36,569 bases of DNA from Acidobacteriota bacterium (GTDB lineage: Bacteria; Acidobacteriota; Terriglobia; Terriglobales; Acidobacteriaceae). The position numbers and the translations under genes are program-made. The DNA lies in contig JAJYZC010000036.1 of assembly GCA_021800255.1 (NCBI GenBank), positions 1 to 36,569 of the forward strand. Reading direction: 5' to 3'. Position 1 is the stretch's first letter; every line of letters starts with the position of its first letter. Shown piece by piece: positions 8,026 to 36,569 of the stretch. The notes under the pieces were generated by a model. That model was not told the origin of the DNA and ran no database searches. It worked only from the letters and a program-made list of their open reading frames with translations.

Positions 8026-9219
8026 TCACGATTTTGCCGAGTATTTTGCCCCAAACCGGCGCAGCTTCTCGAGCGTCGCCGCCGCTTGGCCTGAGTCGAT
8101 GGCCTCGGCGCCCATAGCCACGCCCTCTTTCAGGTCTCCCGCCAGCCCCGCGGCCACCAGCGTCGCGGCTGCGTTCAGTAGCACAATGTCGCGCCGCGCG
8201 CCGGTCGCGCCGGTGAGCACGCCGTAGAGCAAGGCGGAGTTGGTGGCTACATCGCCGCCCACAAATTCCTCAAGCCGGGCGCGGGGCAGGCCGGCCATCT
8301 CTGGCGTTACGCGGGCAGCCCTTAGCACCGGGGTCCCCGGCGACGGTTTTTGGTCGCTGGGGTGGAGCACCGGGGTCCCCGGCGACGGTTTTTGGTCGCT
8401 GGGGTGGAGCACCGGGGTCCCCGGCGGCGGCTTTTGGTCGCTGGGGTGGAATGTGGATTTGTCCGCTTTGGAGTTTGCTGCGCTCTCCTCGACGCGGGCC
8501 ACCACGGACTCGCCCGTGGTGGTGAGCTCGTCGATACCGTCCGAGCCGTGCACCACAAAGGCGCGCTTGGCGCCCAGCGCCGCCAGCGCGCGGCCCACCA
8601 GCAGTACCTTGCTGGGCGCAAGCACGCCGATCACCTGCGTGCGCGCTCCGGCGGGGTTGGTGAGCGGCCCGCAGAGGTTGAAGATGGTGCGAAAGCCGAG
8701 CGCGCGCCTCAGCGGCCCCACCGCTTTCATGGCCGGGTGATAAAACGGCGCGAAGAGAAAGACGAAGCCGGTCTCGCGCAGGCATTCGACGGCCTGCTCC
8801 GGCTGGAGATCGATGGGCACGCCGAGCGCCTCCAGCACATCGGCGGCGCCGCAGCGCGAGGTGACGGCGCGGTTGCCGTGCTTGGCGACCTTGGCGCCCG
8901 CAGCGGCCGCTACCAGCGCGGCGCCGCAGGAGATGTTGAAGGTCTGCGGCCCGCCGCCGCCGGTGCCCACGCAATCCACCAGTTCCTCCCGTTCCTCGGG
9001 TCCAAAGGGCAAAGGCACGGAGTGCGCGCGCATCACGTCCACAAAGCCAGCCAGCTCCGGCGCCTGCTCGCCGCGCGTAGCCAGTACGGCTAAGAGCGCC
9101 GCGGTCTCCGTCTCCGGCGCGCCGGCGAGAATCTCCTTCAGCACGGCAGACGCCTGCTCGCGCGTGAGGGCTGCGCCATCCTCGGCCAGCGGTTTCAGCA
9201 GCTCCTTCAACAAGCCCAT
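8026..9219 (-). CDS. trpD: Anthranilate phosphoribosyltransferase with in-frame tandem-repeat insertion
   Basis: The enzyme joins anthranilate and PRPP in the second step of tryptophan synthesis. Family motifs are complete: [10 protein letters not shown] (about 81-90, PRPP binding), [22 protein letters not shown] (split here as [10 protein letters not shown] and [10 protein letters not shown]), ADVLEALGV, and [12 protein letters not shown] (about 179-190). ATG 9219 is preferred because GGAG lies 5 bases upstream and it gives the standard [10 protein letters not shown] start. At 397 residues it is about 50 longer than usual. The surplus is at residues 245-300, where three tandem 14-residue units (consensus [14 protein letters not shown]) interrupt the chain before [11 protein letters not shown]. 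All flanking motifs remain, so the enzyme is probably functional. No other trp gene is nearby. Confidence 0.95.
8325..8450. repeat. Three tandem 42-bp repeats inside trpD
   Basis: Units lie at 8325-8366, 8367-8408 and 8409-8450. The first two are identical and the third differs at two bases. Each 42-bp unit equals 14 codons, so copy-number change keeps the reading frame. Every unit contains the palindrome CCGGGGTCCCCGG and a small stem GCGAC/GTCGC around an 8-nt loop. Confidence 0.97.
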
Positions 9220-9386
9220 ACCACTCCATGGTAAAGGCGTGGCGCGCCCCAGCGGCCGAATTGCGGCTCTCTTGGCCGGCAAGATACTATGGTGATTGCC
9301 GCTGCCGCGATCTCGCTGGCCCGGATCATTCCTGGTTCAGTCCCGAATCATTCTTCAAACAGCGGACTGGGCGGTTCCTACCGATT

Positions 9387-10562
9387 ATGAAAATTCACGA
9401 ATACCAGGCAAAAGAAATTCTGGCGCGGTACGGGGTTCCCGTGCCCAAGGGCGAAGTGGCCAACACGCTGGAAGAAGCCAACGATGTGGCCCGCAAGCTG
9501 TTTGCCGAAGGCGCCAAGGGCGTGGTGGTGAAGGCGCAGATTCACGCCGGCGGCCGCGGCAAGGGCGGCGGCGTGAAGGTGGCCAAGACCCGCGAAGAGG
9601 CTGAGCAGTACGCCAAAAACATTCTCGGCATGACGCTGGTCACCCACCAGACCGGGCCGCAGGGCCAGAAGGTGCAGCGGCTGCTGATCGAAGAGACCGC
9701 GGCCATCGACCGCGAGCTTTATCTCGGCATCGTGCTCGACCGCGCCGTGGGCAAGCTGGTCTTCATGGCCTCCCAGGCCGGCGGCATGGAGATCGAGGAG
9801 GTGGCCGCGAAAACTCCCGAGGCCATCTTCAAGGAGACCATCGACCCGGCGGTCGGTTTCGGCGCCTGGCAAGCACGCAAGCTGGCCTTCGCGCTGGGCC
9901 TTCAGGCCACACAGATCAACCAGGCGGTAGCCTTCTTCCAGAGCCTCTACAAGGCCTACATCGAGACCGACGCCTCGCTAGTGGAGATCAATCCCTTCAT
10001 CACCACCAAAGACGGCAAGCTTTTCGCGCTCGACGCCAAAATCAACTTCGATGACAACGCTCTGTTCCGCCACGCTGACATCAAGGCCCTGCGCGACATC
10101 GCCGAAGAGGCCCCGCTCGAAGTCGAGGCCAGCAAGTACGCGCTCAACTACATCAAGCTCGACGGATCCATCGCCTGCATGGTCAACGGCGCCGGTCTGG
10201 CCATGGCGACCATGGACATCATCCAGTACGCCGGCGGCAGCCCCGCGAACTTCCTCGACGTGGGCGGCGGGGCCACCCAGGAGCAGATCGAGCACGCCTT
10301 CGAAATCCTGCTCGCCGACGCGCACGTGAAGGCCATCTTCATCAACATCTTTGGCGGCATTCTGCGCGTGGACCGGCTGGCGATGGGCGTGGTCGCAGCA
10401 GCCCAAAAACTGAAGGTCAAGGTGCCCATTGTGCTGCGGCTCGAAGGCACGAATGTGGAGGAGGGGCGGAAGATCCTTCAGGAATCGGGCCTCAACTTTC
10501 AAGTCGGAGCAACCATGAAAGAGGCGGCGGAGTTGGTCGTAAAGGCAGCTTCTAGCTCCTAG
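9387..10562 (+). CDS. sucC: Succinyl-CoA synthetase beta subunit (ADP-forming)
   Basis: This 391-residue ATP-grasp protein is the nucleotide-binding subunit of the citric-acid-cycle enzyme that interconverts succinyl-CoA and succinate with phosphorylation of ADP. The start [20 protein letters not shown] is the canonical N-terminus, which fixes ATG 9387 even though the frame is open further upstream. Further motifs are [19 protein letters not shown] (about 46-64), VEINPF (about 200) and [13 protein letters not shown] (about 318-330). The last codons (K-A-A-S-S-S-stop) are written by the heptamer repeat at 10546-10580, so the C-terminus has been reshaped by it. sucD follows after an intervening gene. 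The gene is divergent from trpD. Confidence 0.97.
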
Positions 10563-10580
10563 CTTCTTGCTGCTGGCTCT
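10546..10580. repeat. Left inverted arm of heptamer repeats (sucC end)
   Basis: Five heptamer-like units (AGCTTCT, AGCTCCT, AGCTTCT, TGCTGCT, GGCTCT) run from 10547. The arm is complementary to 10955-10989: of 35 positions 29 are Watson-Crick and 3 more could be G-U pairs in RNA. It contains the sucC stop codon (10560-10562). Confidence 0.9.
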
Positions 10581-10605
10581 TCAAAGACAGGAAGAGGGAT
10601 CGCAC

Positions 10606-10962
10606 TTGGCGCAAGACTTCCAAGATCTCACGGCTTGGCAAAGGACCATGGAACTAGCCACTACTGTGTACGGGATGACAAAGACTTTTCCCGCCGAAGA
10701 GCTATTTGGGCTGACCTCGCAGTTGAGGCGAGCGAGCGTTTCGATCGTGAGCAATATCGCGGAGGGCCGCGGTAGAGGCTCCGATGGGGAATTTAGGCAG
10801 TTCTTGAATATCGCACAAGGTTCAACGCACGAAGTGCAAACACAGATTTTGCTTGCCAAGCGATTGAAGATTGGAGATGAGATGATGCGGAAGAAGGCTG
10901 AATCACTCAGCATTGAAACCTCCAAAATGCTTGGCGCGTTCATCCAGTCGTTAAAAAGCTAG
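10606..10962 (+). CDS. Four-helix-bundle protein (S23/IVP family) between sucC and sucD
   Basis: The 118-residue product matches the four-helix-bundle family originally seen as the 23S rRNA intervening-sequence protein: QDFQDLTAWQRTMELATTVY at the start, LFGLTSQLRRASVSIVSNIA in the middle, then EGRGRGSDGEFRQFLNIAQG and a final helix. TTG 10606 is preferred because GGAAGAGGGA lies 6-7 bases upstream and it places the conserved start correctly; TTG 10567 lies inside the repeat arm. Base composition is more AT-rich than the adjoining sucC and sucD. Its stop codon falls in the first heptamer of the right arm, and sucD starts 33 bases later. The molecular function of orphan members is unknown. Insertion between two subunits of one enzyme indicates acquisition. 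Confidence 0.9.
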   Translation: MAQDFQDLTAWQRTMELATTVYGMTKTFPAEELFGLTSQLRRASVSIVSNIAEGRGRGSDGEFRQFLNIAQGSTHEVQTQILLAKRLKIGDEMMRKKAESLSIETSKMLGAFIQSLKS

Positions 10963-10989
10963 TAGCTAGAAGCTAGCAGCTAGGAGCTG
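10955..10989. repeat. Right inverted arm of heptamer repeats (sucD leader)
   Basis: Four exact AGCTAGN heptamers plus AGCT run from 10957 to 10988. The arm contains the stop codon of the four-helix-bundle gene (10960-10962) and the sucD ribosome binding site AGGAG (10982-10986). Pairing with 10546-10580 would enclose a 374-nt loop holding the inserted gene and would bury that ribosome binding site. Confidence 0.9.
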
Positions 10990-10995
10990 TTTTTC

Positions 10996-11871
10996 ATGGC
11001 AGTTTTGGTTGATAAGAACACTCGGCTTATCGTGCAGGGAATTACGGGCAAAGAAGGCACCTTCCACGCCAAGGGCTGTGCCGAGTACGGCACCAAGGTG
11101 GTCGGCGGCGTCACGCCGGGCAAGGGCGGAACGACGCACGAGGGCTGGCCGGTCTTCAACACCGTGGCCGATGCGGTCCGCGAGACCGGCGCCAACGCCA
11201 CCATGATCTTCGTGCCGCCGCCGTTCGCCGCCGACGCCATCCTGGAGGCCGAGGACGCGGGCATTCCCCTCATCGTCTGCATCACCGAGGGCATTCCCAC
11301 GCTGGACATGGTGAAGGTGTGGGCCAAGCTCAAGACCTCCAAGTCCCGGCTCATCGGCCCCAACTGTCCGGGCGTGATCTCGCCGGGCAAGGCCAAGATC
11401 GGCATCATGCCCGGCAACATTCACAAGGAGGGTTCGGTGGGCCTGGTATCGCGCTCGGGCACGCTCACCTACGAGGCTGTCTACCAGCTCACCCTGCACG
11501 GCATCGGACAATCGACGGCCATCGGCATCGGCGGCGACCCCATCGTGGGCACCACGCACATTGACGCCCTGCGTCTGCTCAACGACGACCCTCAGACCGA
11601 AGCCATCGTCATGATCGGCGAGATCGGCGGCTCGGCCGAGGAAACCGCAGCCGAGTTCGTCAAGCAGCATGTGAAAAAGCCGGTGGTGGGCTTCGTGGCC
11701 GGCCAGACCGCGCCGCCGGGCCGCCGCATGGGCCACGCCGGCGCGATTATCTCCGGCGGCCAGGGCACCGCCGCCGACAAGATGAAGGCCATGACCGCAG
11801 CCGGCATTCATGTGGTGGTTTCGCCCGCGGAGATCGGCGCCACACTTGCCAAGGTCATTGGCAAAGGCTGA
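10996..11871 (+). CDS. sucD: Succinyl-CoA synthetase alpha subunit
   Basis: This 291-residue protein binds CoA and carries the phosphohistidine of succinyl-CoA synthetase. Motifs seen: [20 protein letters not shown] near the start, [21 protein letters not shown] (about 118-129), the [11 protein letters not shown] stretch and [17 protein letters not shown] containing the active-site histidine. ATG 10996 is preceded by AGGAG at 10982-10986, which belongs to the heptamer arm. It pairs with sucC upstream; the unusual feature is the gene inserted between them. Confidence 0.97.
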
Positions 11872-34818: not shown

Positions 34819-36569
34819 ATGAGCACTTCTTCTCAAAGGGCGCCTCATATCGTGAGTTCAGCAGATGGATCGCTCGATTTCGATGCGCAACAGACCCGCA
34901 CTATAGGGACCGCTCCCTTGTCGATTGCCTTGATAGGCCCCGACGAGGCGAGACGTTCGGTCGTGGCCAAGGCCCTTGCCGAAACTCGCCGCGCCAAAGT
35001 CCGCGAGTTCAATTCCTACCCGCCGGAACTGAAATACCTGCAACCCATGAAGGCGCAGTTCGATGTTCTCATCCTGGATTTGGACAGTGAGCCGGATTTC
35101 GTCCTCGATTTAGTGGAAAGAGCGAGCGTCAACGATGCGGTGACGATCATGGTCTATTCCGAGAGTAGAGAGACGAAACTTGCGGTCCGGGCCATGCGTG
35201 CAGGTGTTCGTGAGTACCTCCTGCTGCCCCTGGAACAAGGCGCAGTGGCCGAGGCTCTCACTCGTATCGAACTCCTCCTCCAGGAAAAGCCGGCTCCCAG
35301 AGAGGCAGCTACGGGCAGCCTGCTCGTCTTTGTCGGCTCCAAAGGGGGAGCCGGTGTTACGACCGTCGCCTGCAATATAGCCATCGCCATGGCGCAGACG
35401 GCCGAGCAGCGCATTTTGTTGATCGATCTCGCGCTTCCTATTGGAGATGCCGCACTGTGCTTGGGGATTGCGGCCAATTACTCGACCGATGACGCCCTCA
35501 AGAATATCGAGCGGCTGGATGCGACTTTTCTTCAAGATCTCCTGGAAAAGCACAGGTCAGGGGTATTCGTGCTCGCGGCTCCCACCAACGTTCCTGAAGT
35601 TGAGGTTTCCAAAGAATCCATCGCCAAGCTGATCGCAGTCGCGCGGCGCGGTTTCGATCATGTGATCGTGGATGCAGGATCGAGGATCGATGTGGCGGCT
35701 AAGACGCTGTTCAAAGATGCCTCTACTGTATACCTCGTCACTCAGACGGGCATCTCCGATCTGCGCAATTCCAATCGCCTTATCGCACAGTTTTTTGCCG
35801 CCGGAAAGCCGAACCTGGAAATCGTGATCAACCGGTTTGAGTCTCGCTTACTGGAATCGGTGAACGAAGATGTAATCGCCAAGGCTATCGGCAAGCCGGT
35901 ACGGTGGACGATTCCCAATGATTCGGCCGCTGCGCGAGAGTTGCAGTACGGCGAAACCGGAGTTGCGGATACAGCCATTTCGCGCATATGCCTGAAGATG
36001 GCGAGCTCGATAAACGGAAGCCCTGCTCCACAAGAGATAAAGAAGCGGGCTGGCCTTAGAAGTCTCGGCAGAAGCATTGCGAAGGCGATTCCCGGTGATG
36101 ATGAGCCGCTGAGCATTACGATTACGCCTCCAGTTATTGTGCCCACCACACCGGCTATCACCTGGCCTGAGCCTGAGCCGATTGCCTACGGCGCAGCACT
36201 GGGCGGCGCGCAACTCAATGCCTCCACATCGATACCGGGAAGGTTCGACTACTCTCCGGCCCCGGGCAAGGTGCTGCCTGCGGGAGTGCACGAACTCACA
36301 GTTACCTTCACCCCCGAGGACAGCGCCAACTACGCTGCTGCACGGGCCGCTGTGCCGCTCACGGTGGCCAAGGCAACGCCCGCCCTCCACTGGCCGGCGC
36401 CCGGCAAAATCGCCTACGGCGCGGCGCTGGGCGGCGCGCAACTCAATGCCTCCACATCGATACCGGGAAGGTTCGACTACTCTCCGGCCCCGGGCAAGGT
36501 GCTGCCTGCGGGAGTGCACGAACTCACAGTTACCTTTACCCCCGAGGACAGCGCCAACTACGCTGCTGC
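34819..36569 (+). CDS. CpaE/TadZ-like ATPase fused to Ig/MBG-like repeats (3' end outside window)
   Basis: The visible 583 codons start at ATG 34819; the frame is closed upstream by a stop at 34687-34689, and the ribosome binding site is weak. Residues of about 30-150 form a receiver-like domain (FDVLILDLDSEPDFVLDLV; AVRAMRAGVREYLLLPLE), and residues of about 168-420 a ParA/MinD-type ATPase with deviant Walker A KGGAGVTT (175-182), LLIDLALPIGD and DHVIVDAG. Together these define CpaE/TadZ proteins that position Flp/Tad pilus machinery. After a linker (PLSITITPPVIVPTTPAITW) come at least two 76-residue beta-rich repeats beginning IAYGAALGGAQLNASTSIPG from residue 455. Such repeats are normally extracellular, so the fusion is unusual. 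No other tad gene is in view. Confidence 0.88.
   Translation, partial: MSTSSQRAPHIVSSADGSLDFDAQQTRTIGTAPLSIALIGPDEARRSVVAKALAETRRAKVREFNSYPPELKYLQPMKAQFDVLILDLDSEPDFVLDLVERASVNDAVTIMVYSESRETKLAVRAMRAGVREYLLLPLEQGAVAEALTRIELLLQEKPAPREAATGSLLVFVGSKGGAGVTTVACNIAIAMAQTAEQRILLIDLALPIGDAALCLGIAANYSTDDALKNIERLDATFLQDLLEKHRSGVFVLAAPTNVPEVEVSKESIAKLIAVARRGFDHVIVDAGSRIDVAAKTLFKDASTVYLVTQTGISDLRNSNRLIAQFFAAGKPNLEIVINRFESRLLESVNEDVIAKAIGKPVRWTIPNDSAAARELQYGETGVADTAISRICLKMASSINGSPAPQEIKKRAGLRSLGRSIAKAIPGDDEPLSITITPPVIVPTTPAITWPEPEPIAYGAALGGAQLNASTSIPGRFDYSPAPGKVLPAGVHELTVTFTPEDSANYAAARAAVPLTVAKATPALHWPAPGKIAYGAALGGAQLNASTSIPGRFDYSPAPGKVLPAGVHELTVTFTPEDSANYAA
36181..36569 (+). repeat. Tandem 228-bp repeats encoding Ig/MBG-like modules
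   Basis: Unit 1 is 36181-36408 and unit 2 starts at 36409 and is cut at 36569. Over the 161 shared bases only four differ, all at silent third positions. The near identity points to recent duplication or ongoing homogenisation. Confidence 0.95.

Follow-up and report, generated by a model that had tools for sequence, protein, structure and literature searches.

The genes for two subunits of one enzyme, sucC and sucD, are separated in the window (the whole stretch of 36,569 nt analysed here) by a third gene that is enclosed by two complementary arrays of heptamers, all on the forward strand. sucC (9387–10562) runs into the left (5′) arm at 10546–10580, which consists of the five heptamers CAGCTTC, TAGCTCC, TAGCTTC, TTGCTGC and TGGCTCT and contains the last sucC codons with the TAG stop (10560–10562). 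The right (3′) arm, at 10955–10989, reads AAAGCTA, GTAGCTA, GAAGCTA, GCAGCTA and GGAGCTG; it contains the stop codon of the enclosed gene (10960–10962) and an AGGAG (10982–10986) that lies 9 nt before the ATG of sucD (10996–11871) and is its likely ribosome-binding site. The enclosed gene (10606–10962) belongs to the S23/IVP family of four-helix-bundle (4HB) proteins and is preceded by a likely ribosome-binding site of its own, AGGAAGAGGG, at 10589–10598. A previous sequence-only reading had described 35-nt arms with 29 Watson–Crick and 3 G-U pairs, the two stop codons and the AGGAG inside them, and an S23/IVP-family gene between sucC and sucD. The pairs were recounted and hold, all three signals are located within the arms, and the order of genes is confirmed by PF05635, TIGR02436 and the family models of sucC and sucD. 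The same reading had the arms built of AGCT heptamers, which is right as to the period of 7, but left units four and five (TTGCTGC and TGGCTCT) contain no AGCT.

Under the stricter threshold no period-7 array other than these two arms was called in the window; under the laxer one a third, weak array (35663–35692) emerged. The flank complementarity of the element is 25, and a value of at least 16 is reached by just 2 of the 87 genes of 80–200 aa in the same genome. In the predicted fold of the RNA from 10520 to 11030 the arms are paired, and none of 100 shuffled sequences was as stable (z = −4.07). No rRNA match was found in the window, nor any Rfam match at the gathering score. Elsewhere in the window, three tandem HPSDQKPxPGTPVL segments (8240–8620, reverse strand) lie inside an ORF at 8026–9282 of the same strand, which we take to be trpD-like.

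The enclosed ORF matched PF05635 with an E value of 7e-36 and TIGR02436 with 5e-35. At E ≤ 0.001, its profile matches were solely PF05635 and PF22296, the latter being the bAvd model of an accessory family of diversity-generating retroelements, which gave 21 bits against a cut-off of 40. The protein matched 2gsc with an E value of 6e-22, and its predicted structure (mean pLDDT 89.5) resembles 2gsc (Z 17.9) and 2rld (Z 17.0). Translation likely starts at TTG 10606 in preference to TTG 10567, from which the longest ORF runs, because the former aligns with the ATG of two other loci (L073 and L077) and has AGGAAGAGG upstream (by eye). The seven 4HB genes found at the sucCD site are under purifying selection, with pN/pS of 0.13–0.38 in 21 pairs whose synonymous sites are mostly saturated. 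In the available text of PMC4990558, the S23/IVP family is described as being without known function and the S23 protein of Xanthomonas as pentameric.

The genome from which the window comes has three 4HB genes, and each lies within complementary heptamer arms of differing sequence: AGCT units at sucCD, TAGGGAC/TAGGCAT at L001, and GTTAGC at L003, a site that by eye is the pheS–pheT junction. The gene is carried by 45 of 60 genomes of the bacterial family and occurs in multiple copies. From these, 72 loci were taken as higher-scoring matches and 20 lower-scoring ones were handled separately. A second, named set came from Acidobacteriota, Planctomycetota, Pseudomonadota, Bacteroidota, Parcubacteria, Nitrospirae, Omnitrophota and others; it comprises the best 80 of 512 matches to the peptide PSNIAEGK and a second pattern, and is biased to one subfamily because of this peptide-pattern search. 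L055 (a tandem copy of ambiguous position) and L136 (no right flank) were left out, and deduplication reduced 150 loci to 140. Flank complementarity of at least 16 was found at 127 of these 140 loci, in Acidobacteriota as well as other phyla, against 3.7% of 4200 mismatched flank pairs and the 2 of 87 small genes given above; the remaining 13 are without clear arms. The expectation that other members of the protein family would have such arms is thus borne out, the three genes of the window's genome included.

Among 34 matched records of cyanobacterial plasmid copies, all five examined have complementary arms, four of them plainly heptameric and the one from Picosynechococcus nearer to period 8 by eye. 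In a plasmid of Picosynechococcus sp. PCC 7003 (L305), the 4HB element lies between cas10 and cmr3 and splits a type III-B CRISPR operon. Trichormus variabilis ATCC 29413 has an element as well. Two other ideas were pursued and given up. Loci without clear heptamers might be rRNA inserts, and 14 of them were scanned, with no rRNA found. A reverse transcriptase might act in trans, and RVT_1 occurs in 20 of the 45 genomes with a 4HB gene versus 3 of the 15 without (Fisher p 0.13). No RVT_1 match was found in the window's genome or in G025, a genome with 11 copies, and a reverse transcriptase is therefore not required.

The arms follow a common grammar. Period 7 was found at 110 of the 140 loci (52/71, 37/44 and 21/25), and other periods are rare. 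Arrays cluster at about four units, with a median of 29 nt. A period-7 array is also present on one side of 9 of the 87 control small genes, though on both sides of none, and a lone array is thus no mark of a 4HB gene. The unit sequences are private to each element, and the arms of different elements rarely match each other, as the 3.7% of mismatched pairs indicates. Common to the elements is a polar motif, NRCYRRN in the 3′ arm (C 0.94) and hence NYYRGYN in the 5′ arm. When 98 elements were fitted without supervision, with rotation and orientation left free, 93 chose the same polarity, compared with at most 63 of 98 in phase-shuffled controls; the 29 of 127 elements whose left arm is not periodic were left out of this fit. 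Within an element, the unit variants of one arm are matched in order by those of the other, with an identity of 0.855 in the best register and 0.626 at ±7. The CTR in the units may resemble primase start sites, and the number of five units may correspond to a pentamer.

Unit type differs with the family of the enclosed protein. GxxExxY genes (L262–L291) from the same 60 genomes have complementary arms in 27 of 30 cases and period 7 in none of the 30, and their inverted arrays are mostly of CACRGAG- or CGCCGAG-like units. Short GIY-YIG genes (L232–L261) have arms in 18 of 26 cases and period 7 in one of 26; GIY-YIG matches within long ORFs have arms in one case out of four. In both families part of the complementarity comes from a repeat common to loci, 16–19% of mismatched pairs reaching 16. 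The inverted repeats that flank short GIY-YIG genes are often of the TGTCATCCTGAGCG type, which is common to several loci. DUF559 genes are few in these genomes and lie mostly within long ORFs. Among the 20 lower-scoring 4HB loci, 18 (L337 and L340–L356) form a second subfamily, recognizable by RTKxFAIRIIRL, and 17 of these 18 have arms; the other two (L338 and L339) are divergent loci of the main type without clear arms. The units of the second subfamily are AT[TC]-based in 15 of 18 loci and are spaced by 8 (28 cases) or 7 (12 cases). Of the 18, 11 passed a threshold for period 8 and eight one for period 7, and the two 4HB subfamilies are therefore better separated by motif than by period. 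As the arms of the second 4HB subfamily and of the two nuclease families are complementary but built largely of other units, arm type tracks the enclosed protein. No other result hints as strongly that the protein may read its own arms.

The sequence-only reading had also taken the element to be an insertion, and this view is upheld by empty sites among relatives. Of 30 loci from relatives, a set that includes the window's own locus, 29 gave a readable sucC–sucD junction (L082, without sucC, was dropped). Twenty-one of these junctions are from the window's genus. In 11 of them the site is empty and sucC abuts or overlaps sucD, and in seven there is a 4HB gene with arms; the others have arms without a gene (L067), a short array (L066) or another ORF (L070). 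The relatives thus do not all carry the gene and its arms, and the empty sites have no array that could expand. ORFs with weak similarity to GIY-YIG were seen at two sucC–sucD junctions, alone in L070 and before a 4HB gene in L072; their assignment to GIY-YIG is weak, the matches (E 0.017 and 0.18; 0.041) all being under the cut-off.

The sucCD gene tree has poor resolution, with stars on 5 of its 20 inner branches. On this tree 4HB occupancy requires six changes, and a single occupied clade is rejected (p-AU 9e-9). The 4HB proteins of the site form one clade among 78 rows, so the patchy occupancy could come from one old insertion followed by repeated precise loss. The 4HB genes of L069 and L078 are sisters (starred) whereas their sucCD genes are not (p-AU 0.003), a conflict that favours some transfer. 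Taking these results together, the site was probably invaded once, then lost or re-invaded. No co-conversion signal was found in the sucCD flanks beside the site, and no target-site duplication was evident by eye at sucCD, where the ends have diverged.

Heptamer hairpins also occur without a gene. In 437 kb of the window's genome there are 16 period-7 arrays against 0–3 for any other period between 4 and 13, and 12 of the 16 are mostly intergenic, though intergenic DNA makes up 16% of the sequence. At the laxer threshold, seven gene-less inverted pairs besides the window's were found (complementarity 14–26); as codon multiples (59 arrays of period 6 and 44 of period 9) outnumber the 36 of period 7 at that threshold, the calling of these pairs rests on complementarity too. 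All seven have the window's polarity and lie between co-directional genes, and in four of them both arms are within 8 bases of the neighbouring genes. A further gene-less case was seen at what we read as the nusG–rplK junction, where all 20 loci read (L307–L325 and L329, one of them from a genome labelled as another family; L335, a partial match, was dropped and four rplK matches were left out) carry an insert of about 165 nt that has heptamer arrays and a similar loop. The two halves of this insert reach a complementarity of 16 in 16 of the 20 loci, and nine more distant loci have gaps of 0–18 nt. No Rfam match was found for the insert in the three loci tested. Its presence in all 20 loci resembles a host function more than a mobile element, and the insert may serve the rplK operon as a structured leader. 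One might extend this view to the whole class and regard the hairpins as host regulatory insulators that separate the expression of operon neighbours, with the 4HB proteins as regulators. The conserved loop at nusG–rplK would suit that idea, as would the stop codon and ribosome-binding site that the sucCD arms supply. We consider it very unlikely, however, in view of the patchy occupancy of sucCD, the privacy of the arm sequences, and the occurrence of elements on plasmids and within unrelated operons (cas10–cmr3, for instance).

Whether the stem works in RNA is a separate matter. The sequence-only reading had suggested a counterpart, within a protein-coding transcript, of the intervening sequences (IVSs) of 23S rRNA: the arms would pair in the sucCD transcript, and either RNase III would cut the stem or the sucD ribosome-binding site would be masked, which would set the SucC:SucD ratio. 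Classical IVSs with the same protein family have complementary ends and are excised by RNase III, according to the part of PMC4990558 available, and the predicted fold of the window's RNA, in which the arms are paired, fits the suggestion. So does the orientation of the elements, which could be scored in 103 of 115 (six unclear and six short-flank cases were dropped). Of these 103, 94 have a gene of the same direction upstream. Where the two neighbouring genes are co-directional, 74 elements have the sense and 6 the antisense orientation. Convergent sites outnumber divergent ones by 20 to 3, versus 49 to 45 in the window's genome. This bias suggests that the 4HB gene is placed for reading by host transcription. 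Antisense elements do occur, however (6 of 103, as well as one at nrdB–nrdA, the ribonucleotide reductase genes, of Nostoc edaphicum and one in Calothrix), and the mismatches in the arms speak against a helix maintained as RNA. On the sense strand, 127 elements have 176 G-U and 180 A-C mismatches, and the nusG–rplK hairpins have 33 and 38. A smaller first set had given 107 G-U against 80 A-C, and the apparent RNA-level constraint was discarded when this asymmetry disappeared with more data. With no excess of G-U over A-C, the pairing is not visibly kept as RNA, contrary to the suggestion; we infer that DNA-level copying between the arms best explains the lack. As for the masking of the ribosome-binding site, the predicted fold agrees with it, but AGGAG is present in the right arm, 7–10 nt before the sucD start, at all seven junctions occupied by a 4HB gene, while the exact AGGAG occurs at none of the 11 empty junctions (GGAG at five of the 11). 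From these sequences, provision of a ribosome-binding site by the right arm seems at least as good a reading as its concealment. We regard an RNA-level IVS of this kind in the sucCD transcript as unlikely.

The want of an RNA-level signature would also be expected if the arrays had simply grown by neutral expansion, with slippage multiplying the heptamers, template switching making the arms complementary, and the 4HB gene surviving as a passenger in long spacers. Heptameric repeats are reported to be over-represented in bacteria, and polymerase slippage has been proposed for them in the portions available of PMC4692102 and PMC4679880; gene-less arrays exist in our data, also beside 9 of the 87 ordinary small genes. 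Such a process does not, however, account for an arm type that differs with the enclosed protein family, for a polarity chosen by 93 of 98 elements, for purifying selection on the 4HB gene, or for empty sucCD sites at which there is no array to expand, and we hold it to be improbable.

We therefore favour, with a probability of about 0.6, the reading that the insert in the window is a transposase-less hairpin insertion akin to the IVSs of 23S rRNA, with a 4HB pentamer that acts on the arms. A member of this class would consist of two complementary arrays of about four to five heptamers and a loop that holds one S23/IVP 4HB gene or none. Insertion would occur at transcribed, tolerant places, namely operon junctions here and rRNA helices in the classical IVSs. 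As host transcription presumably reads through the element, the 4HB gene would not require its own promoter. The arms supply the upstream gene with a stop codon and the downstream gene with a ribosome-binding site, so that the split operon could remain functional, and this illustrates how an enzyme's two subunit genes can tolerate an insertion between them. The two arms of one element would be kept alike by copying at the DNA level, through slippage and hairpin-templated repair or synthesis, and selection for an RNA helix would not be involved. In its pentameric form the 4HB protein may recognize its own unit type and, with a putative host enzyme, promote spread or retention of the element.

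Seen more widely, these results raise the possibility that an unrecognized class of transposase-less mobile hairpins pervades bacteria, in which each unit type is read by a cognate small protein (S23/IVP with YYRGY heptamers or ATY-based 7- to 8-mers, GxxExxY with CACRGAG-like units, and small GIY-YIG with arms of its own). The IVSs of 23S rRNA would then be the rRNA-resident members and the published heptamer repeats gene-less derivatives. For this wider proposal we see the chances as evenly balanced. If arrays and protein families are cognate, the substrate of an S23/IVP protein adjoins each of its genes and binding is directly testable, and the heptamer repeats of cyanobacteria, Beggiatoaceae and Geobacter, the Nostoc intron stems and the rRNA IVSs would be linked. 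The copies in cultured cyanobacteria make the idea testable.

Among known systems, the IVSs of 23S rRNA come close to the window element. The element likewise has an S23p/IVP ORF (PF05635), located in the loop of a predicted long stem formed by complementary termini, and is sporadic (11 empty sites and seven with a 4HB gene among 21 junctions). The likeness drawn by the sequence-only reading therefore stands for protein family and architecture but not for location, as the element lies between protein genes of an operon and not within an rRNA gene; for this reason we describe it as IVS-like in architecture and do not class it as an IVS. The 4HB class further differs from rRNA IVSs in its many copies per genome, its unit arrays with a common polar motif, and its gene-less forms. 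The Coxiella IVS has a 28-bp stem and tandem GACAGAT heptamers before its S23 ORF (PMC4990558, in the part available), and IVP ORFs are also found inside 16S and 23S rRNA inserts of CPR bacteria, as the accessible portion of PMC11270868 describes. This Coxiella IVS is the one exception in our literature search, which covered mostly papers outside subscription and found no other link between an S23/IVP gene and a heptamer array.

The tandem 7-nt units of the window arms are also like the published heptameric simple repeats, which include TAACTGA in Beggiatoaceae, GGGAATC/GGGGATT in Xanthomonas and Nostoc, GGGACCG in Geobacter, and the P6b stems of the Nostoc trnL intron, and which in the available text are often intergenic and sometimes inverted or in stems. 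The full motif NRCYRRN accommodates TAACTGA and GGGACCG, and GGGAATC and GGGGATT agree with at least CYRR, as judged by eye. Unlike the window element, these repeats are described in that text without an enclosed gene and without mention of the S23/IVP family. The 4HB protein has a fold similar to that of Avd of diversity-generating retroelements in the predicted model, although the Z scores of 12.8–13.8 against Avd chains are near the helical-bundle background, unrelated chains scoring equally high; homology of PF05635 and Avd is discussed in the accessible part of PMC10053308. Unlike a diversity-generating retroelement, the system has no reverse transcriptase (RVT_1) match in the window's genome. 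It differs from insertion sequences and MITEs in having arms that rarely match between copies in place of common terminal inverted repeats, and from group I or II introns in that the window contains no catalytic RNA, as judged by Rfam at the gathering score.

REPIN/RAYT systems comprise a gene with a flanking inverted pair and, dispersed in intergenic space, inverted pairs without a gene. The dispersed gene-less pairs (seven in 437 kb besides the window's) are a feature that the 4HB elements have in common with them, while the 4HB elements differ in encoding an S23-family four-helix bundle instead of a tyrosine transposase and in having an arm sequence private to each element. On these comparisons, REPIN/RAYT appears to be the nearest functional analogue of the hairpin at sucCD, and the IVS of 23S rRNA its nearest relative.
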